Of a stretch of DNA of 55,122 nucleotides, positions 9,376-42,613 are shown in pieces. This DNA is from a virus. The notes below the pieces were generated by a model, which saw only the letters and a list, made by a program, of their open reading frames with translations, did no database searches and was not told the origin of the DNA. Location: positions 1 to 55,122 of IMG/VR virus record IMGVR_UViG_3300032285_003935. One strand, 5' to 3'. Each line of letters opens with the position of its first letter. Positions within the stretch are counted from its first letter, which is position 1. Position numbers and translations under genes: made by a program.

Positions 9376-10212
9376 TTAAACTAAATTCAATTCTTCTTTT
9401 TCCTTCATCATTAAAGTATACGCTCTTTCTAATCTGGTAAGACCACAACCCCACCCGAAACGAGGGAAAAATTCTAAAGATAAAAATTCATCTAATTCTT
9501 TTTCAACCCTTTCTTTGCCAAATAACTCAAACAATTTTGCAGAATAGTCACCATTTTCTATGGTGTAAAAGTTATTTTTCATTTCTTCAACATTACAACT
9601 TCTTTCAGCACTTCCGATAGTTTCTTGTCCGTAAAGAATTACATCAACTTTATTAAATACTTTATTCATTCCTTCTTTCATATTCCAAAATGGATTAGTT
9701 CTGTATGGAAAATTTTGTAATGATACAACGTTTCCTTTTTCTTTCCACATTCTTGTTTCATGTTCATCTTCCAAAATAGAAACTCCGTCATATTCTTCAC
9801 AAACATCTTCATAATTAACTTCAATTGGTTTATCAAATCCCAAGTACTCTAAAAGTTCTGACTCTAATTTAATTAAGTCCGACATATCACCCTTACTTTC
9901 AACCTCAAACATTGGAAAAATTAATGAATGTCTACCTGGAATTGGGTCTTTTTCTTGTCTATAAGACGTTGAAATACAATAGACACCGTTCCATTCAGGA
10001 TTTTTAAGAAGTTCGTATTCTAACCACATTTGGCCTGTCTGTGGTAGTGGCCATACTTCTCCTTGATAATTGAATGTTGTTATTGAGTGTGGATTTTCAC
10101 ACGCTGCCAAGATTGATAATCTTGATTGGGTTGGAACTTCTTTAAATCCTTTGTTTTGGAAGAATGTTCTCATCTTTTGAACTAACTCGTTGTAAGTTTC
10201 TGTGTTTTTCAT
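9376..10212 (-). CDS. Class II aminoacyl-tRNA synthetase-like catalytic domain (Asp/Asn/Lys group)
   Basis: A 278-residue protein resembling the catalytic core of class IIb aminoacyl-tRNA synthetases or the asparagine-synthetase-related branch. Motif 2 is seen as STSYRQEKD (Arg84, Glu87) with GRHSLIFPMFEVE, and motif 3 as GWGCGLTRLERA (Gly263, Arg270). No N-terminal OB-fold anticodon-binding domain is present, so it probably does not charge tRNA in the ordinary way. It could activate Asp, Asn or Lys for synthesis or for modifying a protein or RNA (compare EpmA and archaeal AsnA-like proteins). Upstream on the same strand lies a promoter, a tiny Asn-rich ORF and an intrinsic terminator, an attenuator-like layout. 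The substrate is not determined. Confidence 0.85.
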   Translation of the reverse strand: MKNTETYNELVQKMRTFFQNKGFKEVPTQSRLSILAACENPHSITTFNYQGEVWPLPQTGQMWLEYELLKNPEWNGVYCISTSYRQEKDPIPGRHSLIFPMFEVESKGDMSDLIKLESELLEYLGFDKPIEVNYEDVCEEYDGVSILEDEHETRMWKEKGNVVSLQNFPYRTNPFWNMKEGMNKVFNKVDVILYGQETIGSAERSCNVEEMKNNFYTIENGDYSAKLFELFGKERVEKELDEFLSLEFFPRFGWGCGLTRLERAYTLMMKEKEELNLV

Positions 10213-26008: not shown

Positions 26009-26626
26009 GTGAAGGAATTAATACCAACAATTATTACCTCAATTACATCAATTGTTATCGCATTAATAACTGCGGGGTTCTTCAACATGTTGAAGGAAAA
26101 AAGAGCAAAACAAAATTCAAGAAACAAACTTTCTCAACAGATAGAAACTGATGAAATTGTTCACTCTACTTTAAGAGAAATTAGAAGAAAATATAATGCG
26201 GATAGGATATATGTCATACAATTTCACAATGGTGGTAATTTCTACACATCATCAGCAATGCAAAAAGCGTCTGTAACATATGAAAGATGTTCAGATGGTC
26301 TTGAAAGAATAACCGAAAAAATACAAAACGTGTTTGTAAGTCATTATAATTGGTTAATTAAACAAACAATCGAAAATGGATTGTTTATTCACGATTGTAA
26401 TCTTATTCCTGATATTGCAACAAGAGCATTAATTAAAAAGTTTGGAACCCAATCTATGGTTTCATTACCAATTATGGACAGAGAAAACCATTTAATTGCT
26501 CTTCTTTGTATGGATTGGGTGTTTAGTGAACACGTTGAAGTATATTGTGAAAATGAGGAGTTTACAAAGAATTTCAGAGAGGACTTCAAAAAAGACACTC
26601 AGTCGGTTAGAAACTTTTTAATTTAA
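26009..26626 (+). CDS. Membrane-anchored GAF-like domain protein
   Basis: A 205-residue protein starting with GTG (V/MKELIPTIITSITSIVIALI). Residues 4-27 form a membrane helix, 28-60 a charged linker, and 60-200 a domain that resembles GAF sensor domains: ADRIYVIQFHNGGNFYTSS, MVSLPIMDRENHLIALLCMDW. I recall similar FHNGG-containing membrane proteins in other large phages; the ligand and target are unknown. A late-type box TATTTATA at 25968-25975 is 33 bases upstream. Overlaps the convergent gene by 4 bases. Confidence 0.8.
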   Translation: MKELIPTIITSITSIVIALITAGFFNMLKEKRAKQNSRNKLSQQIETDEIVHSTLREIRRKYNADRIYVIQFHNGGNFYTSSAMQKASVTYERCSDGLERITEKIQNVFVSHYNWLIKQTIENGLFIHDCNLIPDIATRALIKKFGTQSMVSLPIMDRENHLIALLCMDWVFSEHVEVYCENEEFTKNFREDFKKDTQSVRNFLI

Positions 26627-27390
26627 TAATCTAAATCAAAGTTTGGGTTACTAGCCGTATTACCAACCCATCCAGCGGTGTCTATTTCATAAAAATATTC
26701 AGTATTATATTCTAAATCTTCATTTGTCTCAACTTCTATTGCCATTGGTAGTGCGTATACTAATATAGTTTCATTTGTATCTTCATAATCTGTGATTGTG
26801 CCAGAGTCAATTTTGTCATATCTGTTAAGTTCACTAAGTTCTGATTTTAATTCTTCATTAATACTAAAATAAATGTCTAATTTTAATTCGTAAGCGTCGC
26901 TTTTTTGTTGTTCACCTGTGCCACCACAGTCGTAACAATCTTCATGACCGCTACCCCCACAGGAATCACATTCACTTTTACCACCGCCATCACAATTTGA
27001 ACATGTTTCACCTTCGTCGTCTTCACCTTCACCACCACAATCAGAACATTCTACTTCACCTGAACCATCACATTCACTGCAACTAATCTCACCATCGCCA
27101 CCACAGTAATCACAGCTTTCCTGAACTTCATCATCAAATACATTAGCAATTGCGTAGGTAAATCCTTCATTATCTAATTTCCATAATATTGATTCAAATT
27201 CTTTTTCACCATTATTAATGGTATTGATTAAAAATACCAATTTAACAAAATCCCATCCTTCTAACACGGACATCATTTGTCGATACGGGCCTTTATGGTC
27301 ATTTAATTTTCTCGATATTTGTGAGACATTAGTATCTTTAATTGATAAAGATAGCTTTTTGGCAATTTGAATTAATTTATTGTTTTCCAT
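26623..27390 (-). CDS. DnaJ-type zinc-finger (CxxCxGxG) protein without J domain
   Basis: A 255-residue protein. The ATG at 27390 follows the palindromic late-type promoter; a longer reading through the promoter is rejected. Residues 95-165 contain six CxxC motifs in the DnaJ arrangement, such as CDYCGGDG, CSECDGSG, CSDCGGEG, CDSCGGSG and CYDCGGTG. These bind zinc and, in DnaJ, help hold unfolded proteins. The J domain that recruits Hsp70 is missing. The acidic C-terminal part (residues 175-255) is not recognised. A role as a folding helper or as a redox or metal protein in assembly is possible. Confidence 0.85.
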   Translation of the reverse strand: MENNKLIQIAKKLSLSIKDTNVSQISRKLNDHKGPYRQMMSVLEGWDFVKLVFLINTINNGEKEFESILWKLDNEGFTYAIANVFDDEVQESCDYCGGDGEISCSECDGSGEVECSDCGGEGEDDEGETCSNCDGGGKSECDSCGGSGHEDCYDCGGTGEQQKSDAYELKLDIYFSINEELKSELSELNRYDKIDSGTITDYEDTNETILVYALPMAIEVETNEDLEYNTEYFYEIDTAGWVGNTASNPNFDLDY

Positions 27391-27391
27391 A

Positions 27392-27405
27392 ATATTTATA
27401 AATAT
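27392..27405. promoter_or_regulatory. Bidirectional palindromic late-type promoter
   Basis: The palindrome ATATTTATAAATAT contains TATTTATA on the plus strand (27393-27400) and on the minus strand (complement of 27397-27404). The divergent starts are at 27390 (minus) and 27418 (plus). The same palindrome stands at 17473-17487. Confidence 0.65.
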
Positions 27406-27417
27406 ACCATTTTTATA

Positions 27418-28287
27418 ATGAATAAAAAACAATTACACGAACAATCATTAAAAGAACTACGTAAGTTAGAAAATATCTTTGAAGATGAATCTATGGCAAG
27501 ACCGGTTGCGTCAAGTGTTAAAAATTACTTGGAAGGTTTAGGTTATGAAACAAAATCAACTATGGCCGAGGTTGGTGATTTAACACCTGAGTTTGGTGAT
27601 GTTTTGAAAAAGGCCGCAGCAACTTTAAAACAAGAATTACCTAATTTAAGAATAAAATTTGGTTCAGGAAGAGATAGGTTCCACAAAGATTACCCAACCA
27701 GCCGACATAATAAAGGAAACGCAATTGATGTTGTGTTTAAAGGTGTTGATAAAAAGAGTGACAAGGACTTAAATCAAATATCAACTGTTCTTTGTGCGTT
27801 AAGAAAGAAATATCCGGGGTTTACATTTATTGATGAATACAGACACGCAAGTAAATTTTCTACAGGTGTTCACTATCATTTATCTTGGTCAGATAATAAA
27901 AATGATGAAGGACATGGAACTGCTGAGTTTTGTTCATCGGTTAAAGATTTAGATTTAAGTCATATTAATTTTGATAAAATTGATTCAGAAATATCAGTAC
28001 AAGAACCAAGTAAATTAGATAAATTTTTAGATTACGTTGGGTTAGGGGACTTATCAGACGCAAAGTCTGGTGATAAAGAAAGTCAAAAAGGATTGGTGGA
28101 TAAGGCAAAGGAACTTTTTTCAGATGATGATGTAAAAGACGACAATGATGGGTTTGAAATATTTGGATATAAATTAGATGATATTTTAGATAAAGTTAAA
28201 AGTGTTATTCCACAATTTGAATCTGAACAAAATAAAAAAAATATTTTAGAAGATATTGAAAAAATTAAATCAAAAATGATTAAATAA
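27418..28287 (+). CDS. Putative capsid-associated M15-type peptidase (VanY-like)
   Basis: A 289-residue protein. The first 25 residues (MNKKQLHEQSLKELRKLENI, then FEDES) resemble the other leaders. Residues 60-160 form an M15-type D,D- or L,D-carboxypeptidase domain, with zinc ligands His97 and Asp104 in SRHNKGNAIDVVF and His154 in GVHYHLSW, the HxxxxxxD...H set of VanY-type enzymes. These cut peptide stems of peptidoglycan. The C-terminal third is acidic and Lys-rich with no known domain. No secretion signal is present, so entry or virion use is more likely than lysis from within. Confidence 0.88.
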   Translation: MNKKQLHEQSLKELRKLENIFEDESMARPVASSVKNYLEGLGYETKSTMAEVGDLTPEFGDVLKKAAATLKQELPNLRIKFGSGRDRFHKDYPTSRHNKGNAIDVVFKGVDKKSDKDLNQISTVLCALRKKYPGFTFIDEYRHASKFSTGVHYHLSWSDNKNDEGHGTAEFCSSVKDLDLSHINFDKIDSEISVQEPSKLDKFLDYVGLGDLSDAKSGDKESQKGLVDKAKELFSDDDVKDDNDGFEIFGYKLDDILDKVKSVIPQFESEQNKKNILEDIEKIKSKMIK

Positions 28288-28317: not shown

Positions 28318-28712
28318 TGGTGGAGATGCGGCGACTCGAACGCCGGTCCAAATATGTCGACCATAAAACACTACACGTTTAGGTCATTGTTTTTCTAAAC
28401 AATCCGAAACTTCACAATTCCCTTATTTTATAGTGGTTCGGTTTACTGAGAACTAATCCTCCACTTTGTTCCTTTTCGGGTAGAAACCACACCACAGTAC
28501 AAGCTTCTGTTGCAAGGTTATATGCTCACCGACCCCGTTGTATACTAATCTTAGATTAGGCTACAGTTACTTCTTCAGTACGGATTAAACCGAGTGTAGA
28601 AAGTTTTGCAATTGTGTTGCCGTTTGTGTTTTAAACCAGTTTTACAGGGTTAGTTTAGCCCCGACGTGCGTTTTATGACAGATTCATACCTGTCAAATCC
28701 AAAAACATCCCC
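28318..28712 (-). ncRNA. ssrA: tmRNA (transfer-messenger RNA)
   Basis: About 395 bases on the minus strand match a one-piece tmRNA. The tRNA-like ends pair: 5' GGGGATG with 3' CATCTCC (one G-U pair). The T-arm is GGCGTTCGAGTCGCC, and the 3' end ACCA is encoded. The 5' side has the conserved GGATTTGACAGG-type segment. The message part begins at a GGC resume codon (28619-28621) and runs 21 codons to TAA (28556-28558), starting GNTIA and ending EEVTVA. The stop sits in a small hairpin (CTAATC/GATTAG), as expected for helix 5. tmRNA rescues stalled ribosomes and tags the protein for proteolysis. This tag is longer than, and unlike, the usual ALAA-ending ones. Host-type promoter at 28735-28765. 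Confidence 0.93.
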
Positions 28713-28787: not shown

Positions 28788-29867
28788 ATGAGTCAACTTT
28801 ATCAAGCATTAAAGGATTTTACGGAAGATTTAGTTACTGCAAATTTTGTTAGGTACGAAGATGATGAAGATATTTTACGTATTACGAGAGTAAATGAAAA
28901 AAATCTTGGTAAATCTTTGGTTTATTTAACATTTGATACTAATGATTATGTTGACCTTTTCACTAGAAATAATGATGAAACTAATAACGGTTATTTAATT
29001 AGAGTCGCTTTCCAAGGGGGGTATTATGGAGGTAATGTTTTCGTTGATGATTATTCCATGGATTATGATTGGGATGAGGGTTATTTACTACATTATTTCA
29101 ATAATGAGAATTTAGATAGGGTCAAACAAATAGTAAAAATATTACGACCTAGTCTTTCCGTAGAAAATTTAACAGAACATAACGATAAAATTATTGAAAT
29201 TTGTAAGTGGTTAAAAAATGATTTTTCAAATGAGATAGATAGTATTATTTACGATTATTCAAGTGAATATGATGAAGCACTCGTTAAAGGATTAAGACAA
29301 TATGTCACATCTAAATTATGTAACGCTTTACTTCCTTTAAATATCTTTGAGAAAAAATGCACTAATCTCTACATGACAACTGTAGCAATTCTTTTAAATA
29401 CTTGGGATAAATCTGGTGAAGACAAAGACGCTAAACTTTCAGATATGTTAAAAACAAGTATTGACCAATTGGGAATACAGTTTGATGAAGATTTATATGA
29501 AGATTATTATGCTTATTTTGATAGTCAAAATTATGATGATGAAAGTTTTAACAGAAGTGTAACTTGGAATCTTGATAAAATCATGGAAAAAATTGAAGAT
29601 AGTGATAATATTGATTCTTATCGTAAAAACTCTGAAGTACTTGAAAAATTATCAAAGTTAAAGTATGGTGAATTTAATAAATGGTATGAATTTCCTTCAC
29701 AAAAAACATTTGGTGAAAAGACACCAAACAAATTCATAATTCGAGATGTTGATGACGGAAAAATACTTATTACATATAGTAATCATAGTAAAAATGAATT
29801 TAACCAAACCGTTAAAATTGATTATGATACTTTCTTAAATTTTTTATATCATCCTGAATTGTTTTAA
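28788..29867 (+). CDS. Hypothetical protein, 359 residues
   Basis: A soluble acidic protein starting MSQLYQALKDFTEDLVTANF. Residues 1-120 look beta-rich (VYLTFDTNDYVDLF, YLIRVAFQGGYYGGNVFVDD); residues 120-290 are helical, with many Asp and Tyr; the end is again beta-like (KFIIRDVDDGKILITYSN). No leader of the capsid-targeting kind and no known motif. Late-type box TATTTATT at 28767-28774. Divergent from tmRNA. Confidence 0.8.
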   Translation: MSQLYQALKDFTEDLVTANFVRYEDDEDILRITRVNEKNLGKSLVYLTFDTNDYVDLFTRNNDETNNGYLIRVAFQGGYYGGNVFVDDYSMDYDWDEGYLLHYFNNENLDRVKQIVKILRPSLSVENLTEHNDKIIEICKWLKNDFSNEIDSIIYDYSSEYDEALVKGLRQYVTSKLCNALLPLNIFEKKCTNLYMTTVAILLNTWDKSGEDKDAKLSDMLKTSIDQLGIQFDEDLYEDYYAYFDSQNYDDESFNRSVTWNLDKIMEKIEDSDNIDSYRKNSEVLEKLSKLKYGEFNKWYEFPSQKTFGEKTPNKFIIRDVDDGKILITYSNHSKNEFNQTVKIDYDTFLNFLYHPELF

Positions 29868-29894: not shown

Positions 29895-30713
29895 ATGATA
29901 GAAAATGTTGATTTCTTAAAAAAGGTATTGTCAATACCTACAAAATCATTTAAAGAAGATTTAATGATTGAATTTTTGGTTGAATACTTAACCGAAAAAA
30001 AACACACTTTTAAAGTTGATGACTTTGGAAATGTTTATGTAACAAAGGGTGAAATAAATGAGGGTGAATTTTACCCTTGTATTGTTGCCCATACCGATAC
30101 GGTGCATAAAATTGACACAATCAACATCCGTGAAGAACAACTTAAAGACTCAAAGGGTAATGTAAGTTTATCACTTAAAGCATATAACGACTTGGGTAAC
30201 CCTACAGGTATTGGTGGTGATGATAAGTGTGGGGTATTTGCTTGTCTTCAATTATTGGAAGTTTTTGATGTGATTAAAGTCGCTTTGTTTGTGTCTGAGG
30301 AAGTTGGTTGTTTGGGTTCAAAAGAAGCTGACCCTGAATTTTTTAGTAATGTGGGTTACGCAATTCAATTTGACGCTCCTCACGATTTTATGGTGACAGA
30401 ATATTGTTATGGTGTTAAAGTTTTTGAAACGGATTCTGAATTTGAGTCAAAGGCTAAAAAAGTTCTTTCTGAAGGTATGTTGTCTGAACCACAATATATG
30501 CAACATCCTTACACTGATGTTTGGCAACTACGTAAGAAGTTTGATTTCTCTTGTATTAATTTTTCAATCGGGTATCACAACTATCACACACCAAATGAAT
30601 ATGTTGTTGTTCATGAAGTTTTTGCTGGTATGAATACAGGTAAAAAAATGATTGAAGAACTTGGTAAACAGAAATACCAATTCATACACAAATCACAATT
30701 ATATAATTTCTAA
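29895..30713 (+). CDS. M20-family metallopeptidase, peptidase T-like
   Basis: A 272-residue protein with the di-zinc aminopeptidase motifs of family M20 (peptidase T): AHTDTVH (ligands His66 and Asp68), GIGGDDKCG (bridging Asp109), SEEVG (catalytic Glu135 and Glu136), Asp160 in QFD and a late His in NYHTPNEYV. The dimerisation domain usually inserted between the halves seems short or absent, since family members are often near 400 residues. Peptidase T frees the N-terminal residue of tripeptides. Promoter: TTG (29859-29861), 19-base spacer, TATCTTTA (29881-29888). It converges on the ClpC gene with a shared terminator. It could recycle peptides made by Clp proteases. Confidence 0.9.
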   Translation: MIENVDFLKKVLSIPTKSFKEDLMIEFLVEYLTEKKHTFKVDDFGNVYVTKGEINEGEFYPCIVAHTDTVHKIDTINIREEQLKDSKGNVSLSLKAYNDLGNPTGIGGDDKCGVFACLQLLEVFDVIKVALFVSEEVGCLGSKEADPEFFSNVGYAIQFDAPHDFMVTEYCYGVKVFETDSEFESKAKKVLSEGMLSEPQYMQHPYTDVWQLRKKFDFSCINFSIGYHNYHTPNEYVVVHEVFAGMNTGKKMIEELGKQKYQFIHKSQLYNF

Positions 30714-30716
30714 AAA

Positions 30717-30744
30717 TAAAAAGGGGGTTTATTCCCCCTTTTTC
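30717..30744. terminator. Bidirectional terminator
   Basis: AAAAGGGGG and CCCCCTTTTT form a stem around tttatt between two convergent genes; it overlaps the last codons of the ClpC gene. Confidence 0.9.
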
Positions 30745-32792
30745 TTTCTTGGTCTTTTCACTTTTGGTGTTTCATCAGGTTGGACTTCAACTTCTGATAT
30801 TGACACTTCTTCCTCATTAATTTCGATATTGTAGGTTTTATCCATTACAATTTTTTCACGTAATACTTCATCTGAAATGTAGTCTTCAATCTTTTCTTGG
30901 ATTGCTCTCTTCAAAGGACGCGCTCCGTAAACATCATCAAACCCAACTTTTGAAACAAAGTCAATTACTGATTGACCAAAGTTAATGTTGTAACCCAAGT
31001 TTAATAAACGAGTTTTTAATTTGTTTATTTCAACAGCAACAATCTTTTGGATATCGTCATTTTGAAGTGTATTGAACACAATTACTTCATCCAAACGATT
31101 GATGAACTCAGGAGCGAAGTGGTTTTTCAATTCTTTGTTCAACATTGTTTTTTTAAGTTCTTCATTGGCATAAACATTACTTGTTTTACTAAATCCAACA
31201 CCCGCACCAAACTCTTGCATTTTTTTCACACCAAGATTTGAAGTCATAATGATTAAACAATTCTTAAAATTGATTTTTCTTCCAAAACTATCCGTCATAT
31301 AACCTTCATCCAATAGTTGGAGTAATGCTGAAAAGATATCTTTGTGTGCCTTTTCAACCTCGTCAAATAATACAACAGAGTACGGTTTGGTTTTTACTTG
31401 TTCTGTAAGTTGTCCACCTTCATCATATCCAACGTAACCAGGAGGTGAACCAATCAAACGAGATACTGTATGTTTCTCTTGGAATTCAGACATATCAACT
31501 CGGATAAGATTTTCCTCACTTCCAAAGATTTGTTTTGCTAATTCTTTTGCCAACAATGTCTTACCAACACCTGTTGAACCTAAGAATATGAATGAACCAA
31601 TTGGTTTGTTTGGGTCTTTAATACCTAATCTATTTCTACGAATAGATTTTGCAATTTTTGTAACCGCTTCTTTTTGTCCAACAACTGATTTATTTAACTC
31701 TTCTTCTAAATTGATAAGTGCAACTTTATCGTCTAAATTAAGTTTTGTTAAAGGTATCTTTGTCATTGTTGAAACAACCTCATAAACCAATTCTTCAGAA
31801 ATTGTCTTTCTGTTATCTAAAAGAGTTTGTTCAAACTTTTTCTTTTCAATATCAAGTTGTGATAAAACCTTCTTTTCTTTATCTCTTAAATTTGCAGCTT
31901 CTTCGTAATTCTGTTTTTTAACAACAAGTAATTTTTGTTGTTTAATTTCTAATGCTTGACGTTTTAATTCATCAATTATTTCAGGATTTTTTACATCGAC
32001 TTGAGCTCTTGCACCAACTTCATCTAAAATGTCAAATGCTTTATCAGGAAACTCTCTGTCTGTAATATATCGTTCTGCTAAATTCACACAAATTTGTAAA
32101 ATATCATCGGTATAATTTACCTTGTGATAATTTTCATATCTGTCTTTAACATTCTTAAGGATTTGTAATGTTTCTTCTTTTGTTGAAGAACTGACAATTA
32201 CTTTTTGAAAACGTCTATCTAACGCCCCATCCTTTTCAATTTGTTTTTTGTATTCATCCAATGTAGTAGCTCCAATACATTGTATTTCACCTCTTGATAA
32301 TGCTGGTTTTAAGATGTTGGAAGCATCCATAGAACCTGATGCGTTACCCGCTCCTACAATAGTATGGATTTCATCAATGAATAGAATGACATTAGGGTTT
32401 GCTTGAATTTCTTCCAAGATTACTTTCAATCGTTCTTCAAATTGTCCACGATACTTTGTTCCGGCGATTACTGAATTCATTTCTAATGAAAGAATACGTT
32501 TATCAACCAAGTTTCTTGGACAGTCACCATCAAAAATCTTCATTGCCAATCCCTCAACAATGGCAGTTTTACCACAACCAGGTTCACCGATAATGATTGG
32601 GTTATTTTTCTTTCTTCTTGAAAGAATTTGTGCAATACGTAATATTTCGTCTTCCCTACCGACAACTGGGTCTAACTTACCTTCCTCAGCAAGTTTAATA
32701 AGGTCACGACTAAAATTGTCTAAAACAGGTGTACTTGAATTTACATCTGCTTTTTTTGGTAGCTTTCCACCTTCATCAACTGAATCTGTCAT
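30729..32792 (-). CDS. clpC: ClpC-type AAA+ unfoldase lacking the N-terminal domain
   Basis: A 687-residue Hsp100 protein with two AAA+ modules. Module 1: Walker A GEPGCGKT (residues 69-76), Walker [11 protein letters not shown] (135-144). A short UVR-like middle part, [17 protein letters not shown] (293-309), marks ClpC rather than ClpB, whose middle domain is much longer. Module 2: Walker A GSTGVGKT (405-412), Walker [12 protein letters not shown], the pore loop region GYVGYDEGG and SNLG sensor 1. The loop near 527-535 carries VGF, where ClpC, ClpA and ClpX have the (I/V/L)GF tripeptide that docks on ClpP. The usual N-terminal adaptor domain (about 140 residues) is absent. It probably unfolds proteins for host ClpP, with altered substrate choice. 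The tail is Lys/Arg-rich. Confidence 0.95.
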
Positions 32793-41722: not shown

Positions 41723-42433
41723 ATGAGATTCGGAATAATAAAAACACTAGTAGAAAATAAGTTAGTAGAGTCATTTAAAAATGAAACTCTTAAAGCTGAT
41801 ATGTATCTTTTTAACAAAAAATTATTAAAAAATAAAGATTTTGTTAAAATGATGTCAATTTATGACAACCTAAATGAAAACAAAGGTTTAGATAAAGAAA
41901 CTTCCAATTATTTGGTTGAGGATATGGTTTCTGAATTTAAAAATCTAAAACTTTCGGAGTCAACAAATAAATTTATTAAAAGTTGGACAAAAGATATTGT
42001 TTTAGAAAACAAATACGAAACTATTGATGATTTATTGTATGGCGATTTGATAAAACCTGAAAAAAAATCAATTGCTAAAAAGAAAATTGTTGAAAGTTTA
42101 ACTAAAACTAAACCTATTGTTGAAAACAAAAAACCTAAAGTTCCAATTAGTTCGTTAGTTAAAATTGCAAATTCAACAGTTGAAAAATATTTAGAAAATC
42201 TAAATGAATCAGAAAAAAATACTGTAAAGGAAATTTTAACTTCAAAAGACGAAAACTTAAAAAATAAATTCAATGAGTTAAAAGAAAATGCAGTTCAAAA
42301 AATTGACTCATTAATTTCAGAATCTGATGAGGAACTTAAAAATGTTTTAATTGAAACAAAAGAAAGAATTACAAATTCTAAACCAACTAAAAAAGAATAC
42401 ATTAAATTATTGAGTTTAACTCAAAATTTATAA
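41723..42433 (+). CDS. Putative prohead core protein
   Basis: A 236-residue, Lys/Glu-rich helical protein located between portal and protease, where T4 carries the core genes 67 and 68. It starts MRFGIIKTLVENKLVESFKN and contains many hydrophobic-x-Glu sites (LVE, LNE, IVE, VLE, LIE), so it may be cut into small peptides during maturation as T4 gp67 is. Late-type box TATTTATA (41699-41706) overlaps the portal stop region. Assignment rests on position and composition. Confidence 0.75.
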   Translation: MRFGIIKTLVENKLVESFKNETLKADMYLFNKKLLKNKDFVKMMSIYDNLNENKGLDKETSNYLVEDMVSEFKNLKLSESTNKFIKSWTKDIVLENKYETIDDLLYGDLIKPEKKSIAKKKIVESLTKTKPIVENKKPKVPISSLVKIANSTVEKYLENLNESEKNTVKEILTSKDENLKNKFNELKENAVQKIDSLISESDEELKNVLIETKERITNSKPTKKEYIKLLSLTQNL

Positions 42434-42613
42434 TTCAATATTTTTTGAATTTTTATAAATTGCATTTTTTAAAATCTGACGTTTAGTGTCAGATTTTTTT
42501 TTGTGGTATTTTCTTTCTTGTAAATTTTTGACAAGTTGTGTTTTTACAACTTTTTGTTTAAAATTTTTGAGAGCTCTTTCAATCCCATTATTTTTTACAG
42601 GTATGATTAACAT
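42428..42613 (-). CDS. rpsU: Ribosomal protein bS21, phage-encoded
   Basis: A 61-residue basic protein matching bacterial small-subunit protein bS21 of the Bacteroidota kind: MLIIPVKNNGIERALKNFKQ aligns with the usual MLIIPVKDGENIERALKRYK start, followed by the basic helices QERKYHKKKSDTKRQILKNA. bS21 sits near the 3' end of 16S rRNA at the mRNA exit. As I recall, in Bacteroidota it helps hide the anti-Shine-Dalgarno with a conserved Tyr near position 54; Tyr53 here (NAIYKNSK) fits. It lies alone on the minus strand inside the head operon, with no Shine-Dalgarno before the ATG. A phage bS21 could replace the host protein on ribosomes and favour phage mRNAs. Confidence 0.9.
   Translation of the reverse strand: MLIIPVKNNGIERALKNFKQKVVKTQLVKNLQERKYHKKKSDTKRQILKNAIYKNSKNIEL

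Follow-up and report, generated by a model that had tools for sequence, protein, structure and literature searches.

Genomic context of the locus

The window, a 55,122-nt stretch covering positions 1 to 55,122 of IMG/VR record IMGVR_UViG_3300032285_003935, encodes a ClpC-type AAA+ unfoldase without an N-terminal domain and, 2 kb downstream on the same strand, a complete tmRNA. The features considered here are listed below.

30729..32792 (-): N-domain-less ClpC-type AAA+ unfoldase, 687 aa, ATG start
32733..32792 (-): first 20 aa, a disordered stretch left over from the N-D1 linker and preceding the conserved TPVLDNF (alignment, AlphaFold)
31191..31199 (-): VGF, predicted ClpP-docking tripeptide, residues 532-534, in the loop after 'TSNLG'; flexible in the model
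30732..30782 (-): C-terminal basic tail (...KRPRKKKGE), disordered; character kept across relatives
29895..30713 (+): gene for an M20/M42/M28-like peptidase, convergent with clpC across a 15-bp gap
28788..29867 (+): gene of unknown function, conserved in 17/36 relatives and flanked by the peptidase gene and the tmRNA
28318..28712 (-): complete one-piece tmRNA (ssrA); RF00023 at 128.7 bits against a gathering threshold of 47; G3-U70 pair, 3' CCA end and internal tag frame
28556..28621 (-): tag reading frame GNTIAKLSTLGLIRTEEVTVA plus stop (ARAGORN and the alignment of relatives)
42428..42613 (-): phage ribosomal protein bS21 (PF01165), between the portal and prohead protease genes

The clpC gene sits among head and packaging genes, and a peptidase of the M20/M42/M28 type adjoins it in 22 of the 36 relatives checked. 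Two other reading frames of the window are of separate interest: one resembles a class II aminoacyl-tRNA synthetase (9376-10212, minus strand; tRNA-synt_2) and, at 278 aa, is short for a full enzyme, and the other (26623-27432, minus strand; in 4/36 relatives) carries CxxCxGxG repeats that resemble the DnaJ zinc-finger and score below the Pfam cutoff.

The evidence on the host agrees on Bacteroidota. Of 45 gene starts, 43 have no Shine-Dalgarno sequence, Flavobacterium phages are among the nearest cultured relatives by terminase and capsid, and the bS21 gene groups the phage with the bS21-carrying lake phages that infect Bacteroidota (PMC9723584).

Domain anatomy of the ClpC-type protein

Pfam resolves the 687-aa ORF into AAA (66-197), AAA_lid_9 (204-305), AAA_2 (396-570) and ClpB_D2-small (576-653). 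Most hallmarks of ClpC, a class I Hsp100 protein, are present: two AAA+ modules with Walker A and B motifs (Walker A is GEPGCGKT in D1 and GSTGVGKT in D2), a short, coiled M/UVR-type middle domain within D1 at residues about 271-326, and an (I/V/L)GF tripeptide in D2; the D1 pore loop reads KYRG. The Clp_N adaptor-binding domain is absent, with no Pfam match in the protein or anywhere in the record, and we therefore classify the protein as an N-less ClpC-type unfoldase rather than a canonical ClpC. Scores against the NCBIfam equivalogs fall below their curated cutoffs for both ClpB (822.8 against 1232) and ClpA (713 against 993). The match to PHROG 4871 (764 positions) begins only at profile position 164, and that to S. 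aureus ClpC only at residue 153.

A single-chain AlphaFold model contains two AAA modules plus a helical hairpin at 271-326. Its pLDDT drops below 50 at residues 1-17 and 529-539, as would be expected of a tail and a docking loop, and in fold comparison a ClpC-ClpP model ranks first, with S. aureus MecA/ClpC/ClpP next. The M domain is mostly intact, with the Arg443-equivalent kept and Tyr296 in place of Phe436. Every N-less phage relative aligned has V, I or L before GF at the predicted ClpP-docking position. An earlier note had described two intact AAA+ modules, a short UVR-type middle part and the VGF loop, and the analysis bears this out; it was also right that the adaptor domain is lost and the predicted ClpP-docking loop retained, a trait that proves to be conserved in a large phage family.

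Absence of the N domain as a conserved state

In most relatives the frame upstream of the ATG is open for only about 4-15 codons, and the same start point recurs in about 70 of them, which rules out an N domain missed through start choice or a frameshift. ClpC evolves under strong purifying selection (dN/dS of 0.04-0.10), and the absence of the N domain is a conserved family state, not a truncation. A separately encoded N domain acting in trans, which the earlier note had named as the case against its reading, was sought in 24 related contigs of up to 322 kb, and no Clp_N was found.

Across relatives, 15-25 charged residues of variable sequence open the protein and lead into a constant TPVLDNF. 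In L172, a Bacteroidota-type ClpC of full length, the N-D1 linker ends in the same motif; L172 is the one sequence that stands for the host side in both the linker and the Tyr/Phe comparisons. In a genome scan for Bacteroidota host ClpC, most of the matches listed came from Actinomycetota. The acidic/Lys start is thus a remnant of the N-D1 linker of a Bacteroidota-type ClpC. That this segment might instead be a new adaptor- or substrate-binding element in place of the N domain, as had been suggested, did not hold up: it is charged and present in all family members, but at about 20 aa it is short, it is predicted to be disordered (pLDDT 30-43) and variable between relatives, and its equivalence to the linker of full-length ClpC makes a replacement domain highly improbable.

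In a tree of 63 sequences, the main N-less group (31 rows) falls with N-containing phage ClpC and a Lak-like N-less group with Bacteroidota ClpC. This suggests more than one loss of the N domain without forcing it: the tree needs several label changes, of which strongly supported branches force only one. Nearly every N-less phage ClpC has tyrosine at the Phe436 position, and so do some cellular and N-containing phage ClpC. We accordingly dropped the substitution as proof of M-domain derepression; it is only suggestive.

A linked tmRNA with a distinct tag

The tmRNA has no match by DNA similarity among phage records. Across related contigs, it is found above the Rfam cutoff in 21 of 24, and the other three contigs stop no more than about 2.3 kb past clpC, short of or within the place expected for the tmRNA; the G3-U70 alanine identity pair is kept in 44 of 46 tmRNAs. 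A first-pass scan for relatives by capsid protein gave close kin only. Two wider searches, in which contigs were picked by similarity to N-less ClpC, added 50 ClpC contigs, 48 of them with N-less ClpC, a figure that is partly a selection effect. A tmRNA accompanies clpC in 26 of these 50 (25 over the cutoff, one slightly under it); in 25 cases it lies on the same strand and downstream, and in 23 it is within 2.0-6.3 kb. None was detected in the other 24. It remains downstream of clpC even where the intervening gene flips orientation. Among 32 records picked by capsid protein, a tmRNA is present in all four with ClpC versus 3 of 28 without (hypergeometric about 0.001, ignoring phylogeny, with all four ClpC-bearing records from the window's own clade). 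By way of background, tmRNA occurs in 2.3% of 18,146 phage genomes (PMC9004378). One huge phage (L181 and L188; LR756508) has two tmRNA-like matches, of 447 nt and about 112 nt.

The window tag, GNTIAKLSTLGLIRTEEVTVA, is 21 aa long and ends in -TVA; ARAGORN places its start four codons further on, at AKLST, and the resume codon adopted here is a reading from relatives. The 46 aligned tmRNAs define a tag of 21-22 aa with the form G-N-x3-K-(L/M)-x3-G-L-x-R-x3-V-x-V-A. Its non-synonymous/synonymous rate is 0.53 in frame versus 0.94 and 1.37 in the shifted frames, and this in-frame synonymous excess, about twofold per site and absent from the shifted frames, indicates that the tag is selected as a peptide. 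The canonical ssrA degron ending, (A)LAA, is not found in the window tag. More broadly, -AA endings occur in 4 of 41 unique tags from phages with ClpC versus 47 of 48 from those without, in a comparison that ignores phylogeny, counts some small contigs not searched for ClpC in the group without it, and omits an ARAGORN tag judged implausible (L645). Among T4-like sister phages that lack ClpC, the endings are of the ALAA, AVAA or LVAA type.

A second set of viral tmRNAs was gathered by T-arm/acceptor pattern, blind to both tag and ClpC, and ARAGORN gave 58 tags. Only one of 49 contigs in this set encodes ClpC, and two more tags lie on contigs already known to carry it. Long GN-type tags are confined to those three and to one tmRNA near a contig end with an identical tag. 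With few exceptions the other tags end in -LAA, -VAA, -MAA and similar.

Candidate partner genes in relatives

A phage ClpP is encoded by 26 of 74 relatives (24/50 in the wider set and 2/24 in the close set), and the catalytic Ser, His and Asp are in place in all six examined. It was not found in close relatives of 240, 294 and 322 kb, where host ClpP must therefore serve, if any does. SmpB occurs in 8 of the 50 wider contigs, two close contigs and three huge phages. In one relative (L364, G072), smpB starts 46 nt past the tmRNA, forming a compact rescue cassette, and the Lak-like huge phages L171 and L174 (LR745206 and LR756502) have N-less ClpC and SmpB with no tmRNA of their own detected.

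A proposed trans-translation and proteolysis module

We lean, with only modest confidence, towards a reading in which the phage encodes its own module for trans-translation and proteolysis and this ClpC supplies the unfoldase, as a ClpC(P) that works without adaptors and is specialised for proteins tagged by the phage tmRNA. The tmRNA would rescue ribosomes that stall during infection and add the phage-specific 21-aa tag ending in -VA. Having lost the N domain, the receiver of host adaptors, phage ClpC would take tagged proteins directly via its pore loops and unfold them, and its VGF loops would hand them to ClpP, either that of the host or, in roughly one relative in three, one that the phage encodes. 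The phage would presumably gain freed ribosomes and recycled amino acids.

Several biochemical results bear on this proposal. In S. aureus ClpC the N domain makes it harder for ssrA-type tags to reach the pore. Once it is removed, an M-domain mutant needs no adaptor and degrades GFP-SsrA at the rate of MecA-activated ClpC; with the N domain present, that mutant has hardly any such activity (PMC5699869). M. tuberculosis dN-ClpC1 alone unfolds ssrA-tagged protein (PMC6274998). The pairing of a conserved N-less ClpC with a nearby tmRNA is what one would expect of an enzyme dedicated to degrading tmRNA-tagged proteins without an adaptor, and the linked phage tmRNA with its conserved, non-canonical tag lends indirect support to the earlier suggestion that substrate choice has changed. 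Four points pull the other way. S. aureus dN-ClpC with a wild-type M domain does not degrade GFP-SsrA (PMC5699869) and the phage M domain is mostly intact; nearly half of the wider ClpC relatives (24/50, including two Lak-like phages with SmpB) have no detected tmRNA; host ClpXP may still read -VA endings; and co-inheritance within one phage lineage makes the gene pair look linked whether or not the two act together, in counts that ignore phylogeny.

A rival reading is a general takeover of proteostasis. Here, N-less ClpC and host ClpP would degrade a different set of proteins, of the host or the phage, and the tmRNA would be an independent rescue gene that shares the late region by chance. 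Of 36 relatives, 30 keep the late region (NTase, KTSC, TerL) as one block, which holds neighbouring genes side by side in any case, and each gene occurs without the other, N-less ClpC without tmRNA and a tmRNA with an ALAA-type tag without ClpC. Chance proximity sits poorly, however, with a tag that differs exactly in phages with N-less ClpC and is kept as a peptide, and with a tmRNA that holds its place when the gene between changes orientation; we regard the takeover as the less likely account, though not a remote one. Location among head and packaging genes, together with the virion-assembly role suggested for jumbo-phage ClpA/ClpX (PMC7824862), would accommodate a protease-independent unfoldase for virion assembly or disaggregation with VGF as a relic, but the V/I/L-GF tripeptide is universal among the N-less phage relatives aligned and many relatives encode their own ClpP, which leaves this account improbable. 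The position of the gene among late structural rather than early genes weighs against counter-defence, in which ClpC would destroy host defence proteins or antitoxins, or outcompete host ClpC/ClpX for ClpP and so halt regulated proteolysis. It has no sequence evidence behind it, only the general argument from a dominant ATPase still able to dock on ClpP, and we consider it very improbable.

The trans-translation module may be extended, tentatively and with rather less confidence than the module itself, to a partly host-independent, virus-owned quality control. The tag would then be a private degron read efficiently only by the adaptor-free phage ClpC, with phage SmpB and ClpP added in some relatives, and rescue and proteolysis would be insulated from host regulation.

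Relation to known systems

Divergent tmRNA tags paired with a dedicated AAA+ protease are known from Mesoplasma florum, where the protease is Lon; that pair, unlike the proposed phage one, is cellular and does not involve ClpC. Bacterial ClpC (S. aureus, B. subtilis and the Bacteroidota-type L172) shares D1, the M domain, D2, Walker motifs, pore loops and the predicted docking loop with the phage protein at about 46-57% identity, whereas the phage protein has no N domain, Tyr at the Phe436 position and a basic C-terminal tail. Laboratory dN-ClpC (S. aureus, PMC5699869) and dN-ClpC1 (M. tuberculosis, PMC6274998) bear the same deletion and still unfold ssrA-tagged protein, in S. aureus only with the M-domain mutation. 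These forms are engineered, while the phage deletion is natural, conserved, under purifying selection and genetically linked to tmRNA.

Phage tmRNA, likewise a ribosome-rescue RNA, and phage SmpB have been described from huge phages (PMC7162821), Melnitz (PMC9004378) and Chryseobacterium phage MA9V-3, which also has ClpX (PMC13120357). The accessible parts of these three papers report no link to an N-less ClpC and no long -VA tag. The Bacteroidota bS21 lake phages (PMC9723584) and the moraphages (PMC12619734) are probably the same or sister lineages; their annotation includes Clp genes and their predicted hosts are Bacteroidota, and the sections consulted describe neither ClpC domain loss nor the tag. 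Neither paper mentions tmRNA.

Each component is of a known kind, and earlier work has listed tmRNAs and Clp proteins of phages separately, with no function assigned to the two together; the combination is new, with ClpC domain loss, a neighbouring tmRNA and a distinct conserved tag pointing to one pathway. The tmRNA link and distinct tag are considerably more interesting than the domain deletion. If the module operates as proposed, viruses would run their own trans-translation degradation, the discarding of the adaptor domain would have a reason, and a new degron-protease pair would become available for laboratory use.

Additional observations on phage ClpC records

In the 'phages' collection, many ClpC matches from OR84xxxx (Listeria/Staphylococcus/Enterococcus) and MT83xxxx records resemble bacterial sequence deposited as phage, and those examined have full N domains. 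Separately, one relative (L744:253-4007; IMGVR_UViG_3300044633_000899) encodes ClpC in two pieces. One piece closes with ...GEPG|CVLEDTWIEV..., and the other, beyond a free 401-aa endonuclease-like ORF, opens with a C-intein that ends NNIISHN|CGKT. The arrangement resembles a split intein within the Walker A motif of D1. The window clpC has the same Walker A Cys, and its gene is intact.
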